This document shows, piece by piece, positions 4,111 through 20,865 of a stretch of DNA of 20,865 nucleotides. Where the stretch lies: positions 1 through 20,865 of the IMG/VR virus record IMGVR_UViG_3300043427_000924. One strand, written 5' to 3'. A model generated the notes under the pieces. That model worked only from the letters and a program-made list of their open reading frames with translations. It searched no databases and was not told the DNA's origin. Positions within the stretch are counted from its first letter, which is position 1; each line of letters starts with the position of its first letter. Made by a program: the position numbers and the translations under genes. This stretch comes from a virus.

Positions 4111-4132
4111 AATTAAATTAGTGTTTAGTGTT

Positions 4133-4231
4133 TTAAAATTTGTCTTTAGTGTTATTATATTCAGATATTAACCCATTTGCTGACATTAAAAATAATAATG
4201 TAACAGCACATAAAAAGAGTAAAAATTCCAT
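4133..4231 (-). CDS. Possible 32-aa membrane peptide
   Basis: A short frame starts at ATG 4231-4229 and ends at TAA 4135-4133. The N-terminal 16 residues (MEFLLFLCAVTLLFLM) are strongly hydrophobic, followed by a short polar tail. Upstream is an AT-rich TTTTAAAACACTTATTAAA leader like those of the other leftward genes, and it lies directly before the GP88-like gene. It is too short to be certain; a leader peptide of the operon is an alternative. Confidence 0.4.
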   Translation of the reverse strand: MEFLLFLCAVTLLFLMSANGLISEYNNTKDKF

Positions 4232-4291
4232 TTTAATAAGTGTTTTAAAAAGTTAGCGCCTATTTTGGTATCGAAACCAAATAAGAAAAAT

Positions 4292-4429
4292 GCTGATTAT
4301 CATTTTTTACACTACATTCCAATGCAGTAACTTAAAACCTATATAGGCTATTCGACAAAACAAAGTATAGGACAAAAAAAGCTGATTATCTTTTTTTACA
4401 TTGCAATCCATTGCAATAACCTAAAGCCC
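4292..4429. repeat. Diverged direct repeat with internal dyads
   Basis: Two copies of about 48 bp (4292-4339 and 4381-4429) share GCTGATTATC(A/T)TTTTTTACA and a following dyad centred on CC. In the second copy the dyad is perfect: ATTGCAAT, CC, ATTGCAAT at 4400-4417. In the first it has one mismatch (4312-4327). Both end in a (C/A)CTAAA(A/G)CC-like stretch. On the leftward transcript each would form a hairpin. Likely regulatory; only two units, so not a CRISPR array. Confidence 0.6.
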
Positions 4430-4527
4430 GTTAAGACTCAAAAAAACCTTTAAATTGGGTTTTCTATATCTGATTCACCACGTCCCCCTCAGATACGTAA
4501 AAATGCAATCACTCATTTTTACCAATA

Positions 4528-4547
4528 ATATGTACACGGGTACATAT
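4528..4547. promoter_or_regulatory. Perfect inverted repeat, candidate operator
   Basis: ATATGTAC, ACGG, GTACATAT: two perfect 8-bp arms with a 4-nt centre, lying in the predicted leader of the leftward operon. It could be a dimeric repressor site or an RNA hairpin. Confidence 0.5.
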
Positions 4548-4698
4548 ATCGCGCTCGTTTTTCTCATTTTAGTTGACTACGCCACGCATCCCAATTACCC
4601 ACAAAATAAAAGAACTATTACACTAGTATATATTAAGATTTTAACTGCTGTCGTTAGACATGAACTTAATATATAGTACACCTTTCAATACTTCACTT

Positions 4699-4711
4699 TC
4701 GTATCTGATAC
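4699..4711. promoter_or_regulatory. Palindrome CGTATCTGATACG, candidate operator
   Basis: CGTATC, T, GATACG is a perfect palindrome around 30-40 bp downstream of the leftward promoter start. Related half sites occur at about 4489 (TCAGATACG) and 4735 (GTATCAG), so three sites surround the promoter. The arrangement fits an operator for a phage repressor. Confidence 0.5.
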
Positions 4712-4748
4712 GTGTTAGCCTTGTGCCTCAATTGTATCAGAACGTTAG

Positions 4749-4779
4749 CAAAGGTACGACTACTTTTTAAACTTGCAAG
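4749..4779 (-). promoter_or_regulatory. Leftward Bacteroidota-type promoter
   Basis: On the minus strand TACCTTTG (4756-4749) fits the Bacteroidota -7 box TAnnTTTG. It is preceded by CTTG (4779-4776) at exactly 19 nt, fitting the -33 TTG box. Transcription would start near 4742 and run into the leftward operon. The resulting leader to the first likely ATG at 4231 would be about 510 nt, unusually long, and contains several inverted repeats. Confidence 0.55.
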
Positions 4780-4927
4780 TATTTTGCAAAGTTTTTTTTA
4801 AAAAAAGTGAAAATATTTTTTGACTCAAAACTAGCAAAACGCTGAAAGGCCGATAAAACCTGGATTTTGTGTTTTTAGGCGACTGAAAAAAAATTTCGGG
4901 AAAGGGATTTTTTTGCAGATGCTATAC

Positions 4928-4950
4928 CTTTGCTTAGATTGTAAGCAAAG
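4928..4950. repeat. Inverted repeat CTTTGCTTA/TAAGCAAAG with a later partial copy
   Basis: Two perfect 9-bp arms flank the centre GATTG. An 18-nt portion (4934-4951) recurs at 5178-5195 with one difference, TTAGATT(G/A)TAAGCAAAGT, so the iteron zone lies between the two copies. TACCTTTG at 4925-4932 resembles a rightward -7 box but has no matching -33 box. Confidence 0.5.
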
Positions 4951-4987
4951 TATATAAATGCAACAACGTTGCAGAAATAAATAATAA

Positions 4988-5062
4988 TATACGACGTAAG
5001 ATCATGCGAAAAGTGATCAATATACGACAAAAAACAACTGTGAAAAGAGATATATATACGAC
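4988..5062 (+). repeat. Three TATACGAC iterons about 33 bp apart
   Basis: TATACGAC occurs at 4988, 5021 and 5055. The last two sit in a longer shared unit of about 24 nt, TG(C/T)GAAAAG(T/A)GA followed by ATATACGAC. Spacings of 33 and 34 bp put the boxes on roughly the same face of the helix, as in replication-initiator or regulator binding arrays. Confidence 0.6.
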
Positions 5063-5101
5063 GTTTTTTATGCGATAACTGGTAAACATCTGAGATAAAA
5101 A

Positions 5102-5214
5102 GTAAACTATAAATGATAAAATAGTTTACAAAAAATCATTGGCTTGTAAACTATGTTTAGACTAATAGTTACTTAGTTTAGATTATAAGCAAAGTTAGTT
5201 TACATTCTAAACTA
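5102..5214. repeat. Six TAGTTTA(C/G) boxes in both orientations
   Basis: Boxes lie at 5102 (inverted), 5122, 5146 (inverted), 5174, 5196 and 5207 (inverted). Two pairs form dyads: GTAAACTA to TAGTTTAC at 5102-5129, and TTAGTTTA, CATTC, TAAACTAA at 5195-5215. They follow the TATACGAC iterons directly. A binding array for a replication initiator or a master regulator is the best reading. Confidence 0.6.
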
Positions 5215-5225
5215 AGTTTCACTCT

Positions 5226-5348
5226 CGCGTGTGTGCGTGCGCGAGCGCGTGCGCCTATGTGTCCGCGCGTGTACCCGTGCGCCCATGCGCGTGGCGTGTG
5301 CGTCTGTGCGTGTGTATGTGTGCGCGTGTGTATGCGTGTGCCTATGCC
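5226..5348. repeat. GC-rich alternating purine/pyrimidine tract (potential Z-DNA)
   Basis: About 120 bp consists almost only of GT, GC and occasional AT dinucleotides, in sharp contrast to the AT-rich surroundings. The stretch 5305-5341 alternates pyrimidine and purine without a break for 37 nt; 5226-5243 does so for 18 nt. Such sequence is prone to left-handed Z-DNA under negative supercoiling. Two open frames cross it only because the repeats lack stop codons. Their products would be nonsense Cys/Val/Arg/Ala repeats. Confidence 0.7.
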
Positions 5349-5468
5349 TACAAAAAGCCTAAAAAATCAGCCGAGCCAAGGCAAAACAGCACCCCCACCC
5401 CTCGAAAAAAATTCCGTTTTCCATTTTCGTTTTGTTTCGTAAAATTGTTATAGTACCCAAAACCCCTA

Positions 5469-5499
5469 TTTGTTTAATCAATAATTTTTTTTACCTTTG
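5469..5499 (+). promoter_or_regulatory. Consensus Bacteroidota promoter
   Basis: TTTG at 5469-5472, a 19-nt spacer, and TACCTTTG at 5492-5499 match the -33 and -7 boxes of Bacteroidota exactly. The transcript would start near 5505 and reach the ATG at 5533 after a short AT-rich leader. Since the -7 box covers the possible TTG start at 5497, that upstream start is excluded. Confidence 0.8.
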
Positions 5500-5532
5500 T
5501 CCCGTTACGTTAACAATTTAAAACTTATAGCT

Positions 5533-5784
5533 ATGAGAGTAAATGGAATTAAGAACAGTATTTACGGCAGTTATGCCGGAGGAGATGGGTTGACTATGAA
5601 GAATGGTCGATTGATTAACAATAGGCCATGTGGAGAGACTGGTATTGCTGAGATGGCTAGGGCTAGGAAGATGGAGAAGAGGGAGGATAAGGTGAGTATG
5701 ATAGCTGAGGGATATGCACGTGGGGAGATGATGAGTGAGGCATCGGAGATGATGATGATGATGCCAATAAAGGTTAGGCGTTAG
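5533..5784 (+). CDS. 83-aa orphan protein, single-gene transcript
   Basis: The protein starts at the ATG at 5533, preceded by the AGCTATG context shared with other genes here. The N-terminal half is Gly/Asn-rich (NSIYGSYAGGDGLTMKNGRL). The C-terminal half is a charged helix (AEMARARKMEKREDKVSMIA) followed by a Met-rich tail with five consecutive Met. It has no membrane segment and one Cys. I do not recognise the family. Its own consensus promoter and strong terminator mean it is expressed independently of the neighbouring operons, so it may be an abundant early product or a regulator. Confidence 0.7.
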   Translation: MRVNGIKNSIYGSYAGGDGLTMKNGRLINNRPCGETGIAEMARARKMEKREDKVSMIAEGYARGEMMSEASEMMMMMPIKVRR

Positions 5785-5838: not shown

Positions 5839-6111
5839 AATACATATTTAATACAGGTTTTAAAGAATAATACATAAAACGTAGTGGATGTCGTGTACTA
5901 TTTCTATATATTTCTTCTTATTATTATTATTTATGTCGATTATTGACACTAAAAATGTCAATAAAATGTCAATTATATTGATATAAATAATTGATTATTA
6001 AGAGAAATGTCGAAAATGTCGAAAATAAAACCAAAATGAAATTTAAAAATAAATTCGCGTTAAATAATAAAATATATATAGAATATAGAAATTCAAAATA
6101 TGAAAATCGGT
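5839..6111. other. AT-rich intergenic region with TGTCAA/TGTCGA repeats
   Basis: There is no convincing gene. It holds an inverted repeat TTGACA to TGTCAA around 5941-5961, a further TGTCAA at about 5967, and a tandem AATGTCGAAAATGTCGAAAAT at about 6006-6026. These are possible operators for the downstream chaperonin operon promoter. Confidence 0.45.
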
Positions 6112-6416: not shown

Positions 6417-8060
6417 ATGTTTGACAGTACAGGCTATTCACCCAAGGACTTGGTCTTTGGAGAGAAGGGGCGCAACAAGTTGATTGATGGCATCACTAAG
6501 ATTGCTGATGCAGTAAAGAGTACCCTTGGCCCAGGGGGCAATACGGTGTTGATAGAGTCACCGCATCACACACATGGTATCACGGTTACAAAGGATGGGG
6601 TTACAGTTGCCAAGGCTGTTGACCTGTTTGATCCGGTAGAGAACCTTGCGGTTAGGATGATGAAGGAGGCAGCTGAGCGTACCGCTACCAGTGCAGGGGA
6701 TGGGACGACTACCTCAATAATCCTGACGGAGGCTATGGTCCTTGAGGGGACTAGGTTGCTAACGCCTGACTTGAATCGCACTGCGGTGCTAAGGCATTTG
6801 CATACTATGTGCAATGAGGTGGTCAGTCAGTTGTCGGCAAAGGCTAAGAAGGTGACGAGTAAGATGATTGCTGACGTGGCTACAATATCAGCGAATAATG
6901 ACAAGGAGATAGGGCGAATCATCGCTGAGGTGTATAAGGACATCGGGAGAGATGGCATTGTTACTGTGGAGAAGAGTCAGACCCATGAGACGTATGCTGA
7001 GACCACCAAGGGCCTAAAGATTGACAGGGGCTATCTGTCAAATATGTTCATCAATGACCAGAAGAAGGACGAGTGTGTATTTGAGGATGTGATGGTATTG
7101 GTATGCGACATTGAGATAAGTAATATCTTGCAGATTGAGAACATATTAAAGCCGATCATTACTGAGGGTAAAAAGTTACTCATCATATCGCCATGCAGTG
7201 TGAACGTGGTCAATACCCTTGCGGCCAATGTCGTAAAGGGTAACGTCAAGGTCTGCGCTATTGCTCCGCCTAACTTTGGGTATAAGCAGCACGAGCTGAT
7301 GCAGGACATCGCGATAAGTGTTGGGGCTAACTACTTCAGTGAGAAAACAGGTGACGACTTGTCGCTCATCAACTATGGCGACTTAGGCCATGCGGCAAAG
7401 GTTATTGTCTCATCTGACAAGACTATCCTACTCAAGTCAAATGCGAGAGCCAAGGCTGAGCAGGTTGACGAAAGGGTCAAGCAGCTATGGGCCGCTCATG
7501 CTATGGCAAAGCGCAAGGCTGACAAGGACTTCATCTTGGAGCGCATCGCTTCATTGACCGGTGGTATCGGTGTTATATATGTCGGAGGTAATACTGACCT
7601 GGAGCAAAAGGAGCTGTATGACCGAGTTGACGATGCAGTATGCGCTGTTAGATCTGCTTTGGAGGAGGGTATCCTTCCAGGTGCCGGCAAAGCACTCTTC
7701 GAGATTGACCATAGTAAGCTGTTGGGTGACCCTCAAAATCATGAGCTGAACGTGGCGTGGCATATCATGGACGCAGCGCTTGAGGCCCCAATCAAACAGA
7801 TACTAAAAAATGTCGGGCTTAACTTTGAGGAGGTGTATGAGTTCTTTACTCCTGAGGGATATGACAAGGTGCCTGACGGACATGGGTACAATGTCAAGAC
7901 CGGTGAGTTCGGGGACCTCATCAAGATGGGTATCGTTGACCCACTCAAGGTCACAAGGAGTGCGCTGCAAAATGCAGTAAGTGTGGCATCAACAATTCTT
8001 AGCACTAATGCCATCATCACAATGGGTAGGAGCTTTGAGATTTCTAACGCTAAACAATAA
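6417..8060 (+). CDS. groEL: Phage-encoded group I chaperonin GroEL
   Basis: At 547 aa this is full length and readily alignable by eye to bacterial GroEL. The ATP site is intact: TLGPGGNTV at residues 36-44, TKDGVTVA with D60 (equivalent of E. coli D52), GDGTTT at 94-99 with D95 (D87), and RVDDAVCAVRSALEEG with D406 (D398, the hydrolytic Asp). The apical domain (about 195-380) keeps the hydrophobic helices used for substrate and GroES binding (ISNILQIENIL; VVNTLAANVV). The C-terminus ends NAKQ and lacks the Gly-Gly-Met tail found in many bacterial GroELs. It probably folds phage virion proteins together with the GroES encoded at 9917-10174. The DNA is more GC-rich than the late genes in the lines I counted (about 48% against about 32%). 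Confidence 0.97.
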   Translation: MFDSTGYSPKDLVFGEKGRNKLIDGITKIADAVKSTLGPGGNTVLIESPHHTHGITVTKDGVTVAKAVDLFDPVENLAVRMMKEAAERTATSAGDGTTTSIILTEAMVLEGTRLLTPDLNRTAVLRHLHTMCNEVVSQLSAKAKKVTSKMIADVATISANNDKEIGRIIAEVYKDIGRDGIVTVEKSQTHETYAETTKGLKIDRGYLSNMFINDQKKDECVFEDVMVLVCDIEISNILQIENILKPIITEGKKLLIISPCSVNVVNTLAANVVKGNVKVCAIAPPNFGYKQHELMQDIAISVGANYFSEKTGDDLSLINYGDLGHAAKVIVSSDKTILLKSNARAKAEQVDERVKQLWAAHAMAKRKADKDFILERIASLTGGIGVIYVGGNTDLEQKELYDRVDDAVCAVRSALEEGILPGAGKALFEIDHSKLLGDPQNHELNVAWHIMDAALEAPIKQILKNVGLNFEEVYEFFTPEGYDKVPDGHGYNVKTGEFGDLIKMGIVDPLKVTRSALQNAVSVASTILSTNAIITMGRSFEISNAKQ

Positions 8061-8451: not shown

Positions 8452-9297
8452 ATGAAGCATTCTTTGCATTCCTCTTTTTACCCACACATTGACGCACATA
8501 AATTTACTACTGTAGTAAAAAAGCTCAGACAGTTTTTTGACAACAAAGGTCTCCTTGAGGTGCATACGCAAAATAGGTTGAGCATATTGGCGGCCTGCGA
8601 GAATCCGCATAGCATTGCTAAGTTTACATACAACCACAATGTCTATCCGCTACCGCAGACTGGGCAGATGTGGCTTGAGCATGAGCTGCTAACACAACCA
8701 CAAGAGAAGGGGTTTTACTGCTTGTCAACGAGCTACCGCAATGAGGAGGCGCCAATTGAGGGTCGCCACTGCATGATCTTCCCAATGTTTGAGTTTGAGT
8801 TCCATGGCACGATGACCGAGCTAGCGATAGTAGAGACTGAGCTGCTTGAGTATCTTGGTTTTAAAACACCTGCTATCAGAAACTATGAGGACGTGTGCGA
8901 TGAGTATGGGGTCAGCATCATTGAGAATGACACAGAGACAAAGCTATACCATGACGTATCTGACGCAGTGTTGTTAATGAACTTCCCAGAGCGCACCAAT
9001 CCATTTTGGAATATGGAGAGACATGACAATGGAACAGCTAAGAAAATTGACGTAATCCTCTGCGGTCAAGAGACGATTGGGTCTGCTGAGCGCAGCTGTA
9101 ATCCTGAACAGATGAAAAAGAACTTCTTTACCATCGAGGATGGCAAATACGCTGAGAAGTTATTCGAGCTTTTTAGCTACAATAGAGTAATTGATGAGCT
9201 TGAGGAGTTCCTACAAAATAAATTTATCCCACGAGTAGGGGCCGGTATTGGTATTACCAGACTCATCAGAGCCATGGAGATAAATAAATTGATTTGA
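8452..9297 (+). CDS. Stand-alone class II aminoacyl-tRNA-synthetase-like ligase core
   Basis: At 281 aa this is the catalytic core of subclass IIb synthetases (Asp/Asn/Lys type) without an anticodon-binding domain. Motif 1 region: FFDNKGLLEVHTQ (about 28-40). PQTGQMWLEHELL (68-80) matches the SPQLYKQ-type segment. Motif 2: STSYRNEEAPIEGRH with R96, E98, R105 and H106, followed by MFEFEF. The metal-site region GQETIGSAERS is at 205-215. Motif 3: GAGIGITR with R270. All ATP-binding residues seem present, so it should form aminoacyl adenylates. Stand-alone relatives include asparagine synthetase (AsnA and the archaeal AsnRS-like type) and EpmA, which modifies EF-P. Which of these it resembles, and its acceptor, cannot be told by eye. 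Confidence 0.85.
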   Translation: MKHSLHSSFYPHIDAHKFTTVVKKLRQFFDNKGLLEVHTQNRLSILAACENPHSIAKFTYNHNVYPLPQTGQMWLEHELLTQPQEKGFYCLSTSYRNEEAPIEGRHCMIFPMFEFEFHGTMTELAIVETELLEYLGFKTPAIRNYEDVCDEYGVSIIENDTETKLYHDVSDAVLLMNFPERTNPFWNMERHDNGTAKKIDVILCGQETIGSAERSCNPEQMKKNFFTIEDGKYAEKLFELFSYNRVIDELEEFLQNKFIPRVGAGIGITRLIRAMEINKLI

Positions 9298-18032: not shown

Positions 18033-18253
18033 TGGATGTAAGGAAGATATCGATAGGTGCTGATTATAAGAACGCAATGCATTATGTTGTCGGACAGAAA
18101 GTCTTAGGCGACACCAATGAGATTCATCTTATAAGAAGAGACCAATCGGGAGCTATCCGAATCTACATAGTAAATAAGAAGCAGGAAGTAGTCCTGTGGA
18201 AAGAGTTTAATGATACTATTCCAATTTCAATCGAATTTAATATAGATTTTTAA
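18032..18253 (+). CDS. Small beta-rich protein
   Basis: The 73-aa protein is strand-rich: IHLIRRDQSGAIRIYIVNKK and EVVLWKEFNDTIPISIEFN. There is no membrane segment. Its ATG overlaps the previous stop as TAATG and its stop overlaps the next ATG, so it is translationally coupled to the double GroES-fold gene. No family recognised. Confidence 0.65.
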   Translation: MDVRKISIGADYKNAMHYVVGQKVLGDTNEIHLIRRDQSGAIRIYIVNKKQEVVLWKEFNDTIPISIEFNIDF

Positions 18254-18825
18254 TGAAATCACCGACTCAGTTTATAGTAAAGCCTGTAAATGGGAGTCGA
18301 TATAACAACACAAAAAGCATAGCTGGTGTTGAGTTCATTGTAAATACCTCTGAGGAGGAGTCAAAGTTCTCAAATCGTTATGCTGAGGTTATAGAGACAC
18401 CTATAGATTACAGCGGTCCAATAAGACCAGGAGATACCTTAATCGTCCACCATAATGTCTTTAAGTTTTACAATGACATTAAGGGTAGACGCAAAAGCGG
18501 TAAGAGCTTTTTTAAGGAGGACCTGTTCTTTATTGATGAAGAGCAGTTTTTTTTATATAAGAGTGATGGAAAGTGGCAAGCATATGATAGGTATTGTTTC
18601 GTAAAACCTATTCCTGCTGAAGAGAGTTATATAAAGAAACCGTTCACACTTGAGCCTTTGATGGGTACGATGAAGTACCCTAATGAATATTTAAAAAGTA
18701 AAGGTGTCAACGAAGGAGATACCGTGTGCTTTGCCCCTAACGGTGAGTACGAATTTGAAATTGATGGTGAAAAGCTATATAGGATGTATGACCATTTTGT
18801 GACAATGAAACTTAATCCGGTATGA
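18253..18825 (+). CDS. GroES-fold protein, probably two tandem barrels
   Basis: The 190-aa protein reads like two GroES-type beta-barrels. Domain 1: FIVKPV near residues 7-12, SIAGVEFIV (22-30), then IRPGDTLIVHHNVFKF (57-72). Domain 2: YCFVKPI near 114-120, GVNEGDTVCFAPNGEYEFEI (151-170) with LYRMYDHFVTM (175-185). The GD-T-hydrophobic motif followed by a hydrophobic strand recurs in both halves, as in GroES. The basic insertion GRRKSGKS (78-85) is unlike GroES. It lies directly upstream of the terminase genes, so a structural or assembly role is as likely as co-chaperonin activity. Confidence 0.55.
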   Translation: MKSPTQFIVKPVNGSRYNNTKSIAGVEFIVNTSEEESKFSNRYAEVIETPIDYSGPIRPGDTLIVHHNVFKFYNDIKGRRKSGKSFFKEDLFFIDEEQFFLYKSDGKWQAYDRYCFVKPIPAEESYIKKPFTLEPLMGTMKYPNEYLKSKGVNEGDTVCFAPNGEYEFEIDGEKLYRMYDHFVTMKLNPV

Positions 18826-19100
18826 GCAACAGAGAGCTAAAACTTAAAATAATAAACTCTGGATACAAAGCCATAGAGGAATTGATAAAGGTTGCAGAGG
18901 AGAGTATTGTCACCCACGAAGAGGGCGATATATCAGCAGATAAGTTAAAGAATGCAGCAGCATCTAAGAAGTTGGCAATATTTGATGCATTTGAAATACT
19001 CAGTAGAATAGAATCCGAGAAAGAATCTCTTGATTATATAGAGAGAGGTATTAGTAAAGTAGACTCAAAACAAGGCTTTGCAGAAAGACGATCAAAATAG
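18822..19100 (+). CDS. Candidate small terminase subunit
   Basis: The 92-aa protein is predicted mostly helical (LKIINSGYKAIEELIKVAEE; LKNAAASKKLAIFDAFEILS; a charged C-terminus). It sits immediately upstream of and overlaps the large terminase gene, starting with an ATGA overlap from the previous gene. Position and helical composition fit a small terminase subunit. No clear helix-turn-helix is seen, so this is a positional inference. Confidence 0.5.
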   Translation: MSNRELKLKIINSGYKAIEELIKVAEESIVTHEEGDISADKLKNAAASKKLAIFDAFEILSRIESEKESLDYIERGISKVDSKQGFAERRSK

Positions 19101-20865
19101 ACTTTATTATGTCGTGAAGGATCTAATTCCTTCGAATGCGATTACTAATAAAAATAGAGTTCGCTCTTGGCTGTACGGTTACAATGAGCAGTATGACGTT
19201 GTCGTCATCTCAAAGAACGGTCAGATAGGCGAGGTTATAAACATCTCAGGGGTAAACATAGCCCTTCCTCCTGCACCAGAGAACTGCCGCAAAAGAAGCG
19301 ACTCAAAAGCAGAGCAATATTGGGAGCGTGTTCCGGTACCTAAAGAACTTGAGAAGATAAACTCAATCTTCCAATGGAATGAAAAGCCAAACGAGTTCAA
19401 AAATAAATGGGTTGATTATATAGAGAATGAGTTTGATTATCGTGAGCAAGGTTATTGGTTCATGAATAATGGAACTCCTTGCTATATCACAGGGTCTCAT
19501 TATATGTACCTACAATGGTCAAGCATTGACGTTGGTTATCCTGACTTCCGAGAAGCGAATAGGATTTTCTTCTTATTTTGGGAGGCTTGCAAAGCAGACC
19601 CAAGATGCTTCGGAATGATATATCTCAAGATAAGACGCTCAGGTTTCTCGTTCATGTCATCCTCCGAGTGCGTAAATCTCGCAACGCTAGCAAAGGACGC
19701 TCGCTTAGGTATCTTGTCAAAGACAGGTGCCGATGCTAAGAAGATGTTTACCGACAAGGTGGTCCCAATCAATAACAAGTTGCCGTTCTTCTTCAAGCCA
19801 ATAATGGATGGTATGGACAAACCAAAGGTCGAGTTGGCGTTCCGTGTTCCAGCATCAAAGATTACCAAGAAGAATATGCATGAGGTCAACAACAATGACA
19901 TAGTCGGATTGGATACTACTATTGACTGGAAGAATACTGAGGAGAACTCTTATGACGGTGAGAAGCTATTATTCCTAGCTCATGACGAATCGGGCAAGTG
20001 GGTCAAGCCAAATAACATTCTGAATAACTGGCGTGTAACGAAAACTTGTTTGCGTTTGGGTAGTAAGATTATAGGCAAGTGTATGATGGGGTCTACCTCA
20101 AATGCCTTAAATAAGGGTGGTGATAACTTCAAGTCCTTATACTATGACTCAAATGTAGAGAATAGGAATGCTAATGGACAGACAAAGAGTGGGCTATACG
20201 CCTTGTTTATTCCAATGGAGTGGAATATGGAGGGCTTTATTGACAAGTACGGTATGCCTGTGTTCAGGAAGCCTGAGAAGCCAATAGAAGGAGTAGATGG
20301 TGGTAAGATATCAAATGGAGCGATTGATTACTGGGAGAATGAGGCAGCGTCACTAAAGAATGATGCCGATGCACTGAACGAGTTCTATCGTCAGTTCCCA
20401 AGGTCAGAGTCCCATGCATTTAGAGATGAGAGTAAGCAGGCGATATTTAACCTGACTAAGATATATCAGCAAATTGATTACAATGACTCGTTAATCAAGG
20501 AGCAGTATTTGACAAGAGGGTCATTCTCATGGAAAGACGGAATTAAAGACACAAAGGTTGTATGGACTCCAAATAAACATGGAAGATTTTTAATTAGCTG
20601 GTTCCCTCCTGCGCATTATGCGAACAATGTGCATACAAGGAATGGAATTAAGCATCCAGGTAATGAGCATTTAGGGTCGTTTGGATGTGACCCATATGAC
20701 ATCTCGGCAGTTGTCGGAGGAAGAGGGTCAAGTGGATCGCTACATGGGATGACAAAGTTCCACATGGATGACGCTCCGGTAAATGAGTTTTTTTTGGAAT
20801 ATATAGCAAGACCACAAACAGCAGAGATATTTTTTGAAGAGATACTTATGGCTTGCGTTTACTAC
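19078..20865 (+). CDS. terL: Large terminase subunit (5' part, runs off the window)
   Basis: At least 596 codons from a TTG at 19078, continuing past the right edge. The first ATG-like options are poor, and a GTG at 19114 is the other candidate start. The TTG start gives a 23-bp overlap with the upstream gene. Visible features of a phage packaging ATPase: a Walker A-like KIRRSGFSFMSS (about residues 184-195), a Walker B LLFLAHDESGKW with D303-E304, a coupling-type CMMGSTSN (about 335-342), and the nuclease-domain start FGCDPYDISAVVGG near residue 545. The Walker A is non-classical (no GKT), as in several other TerL lineages. It should cut and pump DNA into procapsids. Confidence 0.85.
   Translation, partial: MQKDDQNRLYYVVKDLIPSNAITNKNRVRSWLYGYNEQYDVVVISKNGQIGEVINISGVNIALPPAPENCRKRSDSKAEQYWERVPVPKELEKINSIFQWNEKPNEFKNKWVDYIENEFDYREQGYWFMNNGTPCYITGSHYMYLQWSSIDVGYPDFREANRIFFLFWEACKADPRCFGMIYLKIRRSGFSFMSSSECVNLATLAKDARLGILSKTGADAKKMFTDKVVPINNKLPFFFKPIMDGMDKPKVELAFRVPASKITKKNMHEVNNNDIVGLDTTIDWKNTEENSYDGEKLLFLAHDESGKWVKPNNILNNWRVTKTCLRLGSKIIGKCMMGSTSNALNKGGDNFKSLYYDSNVENRNANGQTKSGLYALFIPMEWNMEGFIDKYGMPVFRKPEKPIEGVDGGKISNGAIDYWENEAASLKNDADALNEFYRQFPRSESHAFRDESKQAIFNLTKIYQQIDYNDSLIKEQYLTRGSFSWKDGIKDTKVVWTPNKHGRFLISWFPPAHYANNVHTRNGIKHPGNEHLGSFGCDPYDISAVVGGRGSSGSLHGMTKFHMDDAPVNEFFLEYIARPQTAEIFFEEILMACVYY

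Follow-up and report, generated by a model that had tools for sequence, protein, structure and literature searches.

Why does a virus genome of about 39% GC carry, between two diverging genes, a stretch of some 120 bp in which purines and pyrimidines alternate almost without interruption, and what about this stretch is kept in related phages? The window analysed here, 20,865 nucleotides in all, is a virus fragment whose terminase has its relatives in Flavobacterium, Cellulophaga, Maribacter and Tenacibaculum phages; judged from its sequence, the window phage is a Flavobacteriia-type podovirus. The tract lies in a control region at which the cumulative GC skew turns, and no papers describing this region were found in the open literature. 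The features are as follows.

4111..5532, no strand: divergent non-coding control region of 1.4 kb, with the GP88-family gene (-) on one side and the small late-operon gene (+) on the other (ORF map, GP88 Pfam match)
4749..4756, - strand: candidate leftward promoter -7 element TACCTTTG (sequence)
4925..4952, no strand: palindromic candidate operator CTTTGCTTAGATTGTAAGCAAAG (repeats D3/I1)
5171..5217, no strand: two more palindromic candidate operators, directly left of the island (repeats D3/I4)
5226..5350, + strand: hypervariable island, an alternating (YG)n tract in the window, with its left edge called at 5226
5305..5341, + strand: unbroken pyrimidine/purine alternation of 37 nt
5352..5411, + strand: conserved block AAAAAGCC(T)AAAAAATC-N-ACCCCCACCCC-TCG-A7 (108 slots)
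5492..5499, + strand: candidate late promoter -7 element TACCTTTG, of the Bacteroidota TAnnTTTG type (sequence)
5533..5784, + strand: small conserved gene of the NSIYxxxxGLTVKNGRLINNRP family, heading the operon that leads to groEL
6417..8060, + strand: phage GroEL, an anchor for finding relatives

The -7 elements follow the TAnnTTTG promoter consensus of Bacteroidota (PMC10309648). Further right, upstream of groEL, another intergenic stretch is conserved (5858-6049); it has ATGTCGA/GTCAAT repeats and, with 83% identity still in the locus L089, is more conserved than the greater part of the control region. The gene at 8452-9297 encodes a class II aminoacyl-tRNA-synthetase-like protein (Pfam tRNA-synt_2, phrog_29758) and shares its operon with GroEL and a MazG-like pyrophosphatase.

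The unusual alternating stretch that a sequence-only reading had placed at 5226-5348 is real and its coordinates are correct. Across these 123 bases 106 of the 122 steps alternate between purine and pyrimidine; the longest unbroken run has 37 nt (5305-5341), the runner-up 18 nt (5226-5243), and all other runs in the window have 11 nt or fewer. In 300 simulations with an order-2 Markov model of the remaining window the maxima were 86 of 122 steps and a 22-nt run, and the alternation of the tract is far above chance expectation. The GC content of the tract is 67% as against about 39% for the window, and its composition is that of (YG)n, purine positions being almost all G with C or T alternating in between. 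The earlier label of a stretch made of GT and GC only is too strict, as 7 of the 123 bases are A. The iterons said to lie beside the tract are imperfect palindromes of about 22 bp (5171-5217 and 4925-4952). A coding role of the island was rejected, since its frames are open merely from the absence of stop codons and nothing alike is encoded in the relatives.

Position, length, composition and alternation of the island

GP88, GroEL and the small protein served as anchors for finding slots in relatives, and a profile of the conserved block gave 108 usable distinct slots, nearly all of them on metagenome contigs with a few exceptions. The block is an A-tract/C-tract element of about 60 bp on the right of the slot, with the consensus AAAAaGCCAAAAAAtc...acCCCCaCCCC..AAAAAAA, and is followed by the TAnnTTTG promoter. 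Neither a consensus RNA fold for the block nor an Rfam family near its gathering score was obtained, and a conserved structured RNA was rejected on these grounds. The profile also matches MW202828, a complete circular genome, and the cultured phages phi38:1 (E 3.9e-6) and elemo (5.7e-4), so that the control regions of Callevirus phi38:1 and Elemovirus resemble that of the window in having a homologous block in a divergent region. The elemo phages, however, have no clear GC-rich island, and the G-rich repeat region upstream of the block in phi38:1, though similar in kind, lies about 180 bp to the left of the block and is not GC-rich; the fixed geometry may thus hold only in the clade of the window. 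At 18906-19135 Cellulophaga phage phi38:1 (L285) is rich in G (35%) and poor in C (8%) and contains a tandem repeat of 32 bp. In an elemo phage (L274) the block homologue falls inside 18229-19082, a divergent control region with four tiny annotated ORFs that are probably not genes.

In the 108 related phage loci the same slot nearly always holds an island of about 120 bp with sharp edges (median 122 bp, IQR 107-137); the composition test found no island in about 9 of 95 slots. Averaged over the 108 slots, the positions from -120 to 0 relative to the block form a plateau (GC 0.56, G 0.37, T 0.16), mean GC stepping from 0.37 to 0.56 at -120 and then down to 0.35 at the block, and GC left of the island is 32%, mostly 0.28-0.42. 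The islands are G-rich on the + strand. Of 67 lineages separated by more than 25% difference in adjoining sequence, 66 have an island richer in GC than its locus and 60 have more G than C in the island. The alternation first noticed in the window turned out to be enriched at the slot across the phage family, islands other than (YG)n included. Purine/pyrimidine alternation beyond that given by composition forms a plateau limited to the island, values in the surroundings being near zero or negative, and in the 60 non-YG lineages its median z is 1.55 (P 2e-9, 38% above 2) as against 0.20 in GC-matched windows; the excess is absent from left flanks, genes and these GC-matched windows. Among the steps within islands, pyrimidine-pyrimidine is avoided (observed/expected 0.74) and TA and CA are favoured, while the enriched tetramers are mostly alternating and the depleted ones mostly homopurine. 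Islands with few repeats have the same G bias and alternation tendencies, but weaker, and a motif search over the islands gave no short motif common to all.

Turnover of the island sequence

The (YG)n type occurs in about eleven loci; elsewhere the islands are of CAG, GGGAACCAA, GGCAGG, GGCTGTAG and other types, the repeat units varying from lineage to lineage. Absence of the tract from all related genomes had been named beforehand as a sign of an assembly artefact or a chance insertion. The same tract type in fact occupies the same slot in close relatives (L002/L086, L085, L087/L162/L163) and in the more distant L094, with unbroken alternation of up to 54 nt in L002/L086, L085, L087 and L094, and MW202828 has a CG/TG-rich relative of it there, which makes either origin very unlikely. 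Five further loci (L083, L088, L089, L090 and L003) have a different island at this slot, of the CAG/ACG/ATACGA type. In the window clade the transition/transversion ratio does not differ significantly between tract and flank (P 0.76 and 0.08), and by these counts alternation is not visibly protected; a transition bias as proof of selection for alternation was rejected, being not significant and confounded by alignment register.

In pairs of phages with a 94-100% identical neighbouring gene the islands are often at or near random identity. The contigs of L239 and L237, for example, are about 97-98% identical over most of some 11 kb on the right and also have 60 bp of operator on the left in common, and between these shared flanks lie an unrelated 126 bp (YG type) and 220 bp (GAAGC type), with 46% identity against a random mean of 47%. 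Placing the YG label on the tree of the small protein, which has few columns, takes 7 changes, at least 5 of them forced by well-supported branches, and the YG type therefore recurs. Internal periodicity is significant in 24 of 71 dissimilar islands as against 0.4% of shuffles, and the islands do not share one period; the window tract is only weakly periodic in this simple-sequence test, and repeat analysis detected no regular repeat unit in it. Of 80 contigs, 25 break off in the 1 kb upstream of the adjacent gene and none in the 1 kb downstream of it, as expected if the slot differs between members of a population or resists assembly, although the breaks could partly come from low complexity besides population variation. 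A physical genome end at the island was rejected, as the ends of near-complete contigs vary.

The palindromes beside the island also differ, relatives having other palindromes at positions similar to those of the window pair (5171..5217). In one large group the palindrome GTGTCTTTAAAGACAC recurs immediately to the left of the island, at roughly -130 to -180 relative to the block (for example L113, L115 and L103), and other groups have TTATTGTAAAAAGTACAATAA or AACTAACGCTTGTTAGTT in its place; these are lineage-specific candidate operators. A set of repeats distinct from the island, alternating and AT-rich and of the TATACAGTATAC type, is found near GP88-family genes of other phages (L021, L022, L023, L067 and L035), about 1.7-2.5 kb downstream of the GP88 gene.

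Z-DNA propensity and promoter arrangement

Z-Hunt-type energies underlie the critical-sigma values given here. The sequence-only reading had held that such tracts form Z-DNA under supercoiling. For the window tract, a long CG/TG-rich alternating run, an easy B-Z transition is indeed predicted at moderate negative supercoiling and an accessible superhelix density (critical sigma about -0.042), but Z-DNA as a general function of the slot is not supported. Critical sigma is weaker than -0.05 in 16 of the 108 slots versus 0 of 370 control windows, and the median of the slots is just slightly below the control median. Strong predicted Z-formers number about 11-16 of 108 (besides the window L002, L087, L094, L221, L226, L239, L246, L260, L192 and L170), and strong Z-propensity is not kept across orthologous slots. 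Because the majority of slots are weakly Z-prone and near-identical phages swap Z and non-Z islands, Z-DNA alone is not the conserved function; on the modelled energies, Z-formation is open to some alleles and is not common to the slot.

Promoters were identified as consensus matches and not as mapped transcript starts. Across slots, TAnnTTTG matches pointing leftward are enriched between -400 and -250, counted from the block, the copy in the window lying further left at about -600, and a rightward match is present at +100 to +150 in 73% of slots; no promoter match pointing rightward through the island is enriched. The tract had been supposed to belong to a divergent transcription unit, and by these matches it does sit between divergent promoters. 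We infer that these promoters are active and that the island itself is not transcribed. In the twin-domain model negative supercoils arise between divergent promoters. As promoters flank the gap and none is enriched to transcribe the island, the island is probably in such a zone.

Explanations for the slot

The facts to be accounted for are the position, length, composition, alternation surplus and turnover of the island. One account, which we consider unlikely, is that it is a mutational product without a function of its own, a minisatellite-like hypervariable locus that slippage during replication, together with recombination, would generate at a site prone to breaks or near an origin. The islands are like minisatellites and simple-sequence repeats in being GC-rich and strand-asymmetric with short lineage-specific repeats and fast turnover, and their internal periodicity, replacement en bloc and the one-sided contig ends all agree with it. 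But they occupy a fixed slot of a phage control region at a near-constant length of about 120 bp, and the G-strand bias and surplus alternation extend over the 67 lineages, islands without strong repeats included; a neutral break-prone minisatellite accounts for the turnover and not for length, strand bias and alternation. Slippage, which the sequence-only reading had offered as the source of the tract, is accordingly plausible for the birth of islands and not sufficient alone for these three properties, although slippage favouring some units could produce part of the alternation. An iteron-like protein-binding array, its repeat unit co-evolving with a fast-changing phage initiator or activator, is improbable. 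Lineage-specific repeats beside palindromic candidate operators and the conserved block, with short recurring motifs such as CCGTTAGT in L096, speak for it, and the slot shares with iteron-type phage and plasmid origins its repeats and palindromes beside A/T-rich DNA at a divergence point; yet the islands have no conserved unit length or sequence, no common helical period and no evenly spaced copies of one binding site, several are barely repetitive, near-identical phages have unrelated ones, and no initiator was identified.

That the island is a Z-DNA element proper, kept for Z-formation, appears quite improbable. The CG/TG alternation, the predicted transition and the divergent gap are features it has in common with Z-forming (CA/TG)n and (CG)n tracts, and the other strong formers and the recurrence of the YG type also speak for it. 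Against it, the window type is just one among the many kinds of island at this slot, Z-propensity is weak in most orthologous islands and sister phages alternate between YG and non-Z islands. We give very little credence to an R-loop replication origin, in which G-rich RNA through the island would prime synthesis. The G-rich + strand, the G-rich repeats near the block in phi38:1 and a GC-skew minimum less than 1 kb from the block in MW202828 would suit it, but GC skew is confounded by gene direction, and across slots no enriched rightward promoter upstream of the island would drive such an RNA, for which reason a G-rich RNA primer was rejected.

Our own reading, a tentative one that is quite possibly correct, is that the window tract is the local allele of a structural spacer of about 120 bp between the divergent promoters of this Flavobacteriia-type podovirus family. 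At the slot the place, the length of about 120 bp, a GC-rich make-up with the G on the + strand and the surplus alternation are maintained; the letters are not, islands being swapped en bloc or re-grown from short repeats. Such a spacer may provide a flexible, easily under-twisted segment that keeps the operator palindromes, to its left, apart from the A-tract/C-tract block and the late promoter, to its right, and that absorbs the negative supercoiling generated by divergent transcription, a physical role of which the (YG)n version would be the extreme case, by flipping to Z-DNA. The nearly constant length and base make-up with an ever-changing sequence suggest that the shape of the DNA at the slot counts rather than the order of its letters. 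A wider proposition, possible but on balance rather unlikely, is that this is a cis-element set by length, composition and alternation instead of sequence, so that any flexible, GC-rich, alternation-rich DNA of about 120 bp could serve the early/late switch and is hence constantly swapped or re-invented.

Elements of this kind would escape standard motif searches, and the slot is a place in a common aquatic phage family at which the sequence is hypervariable and assemblies break. If the spacer reading is true, the family would hold dozens of independent natural solutions to one physical task at a promoter switch, and, as sequence varies while shape parameters hold, it would become testable which mechanical property (twist, flexibility, Z-propensity or length) matters there.
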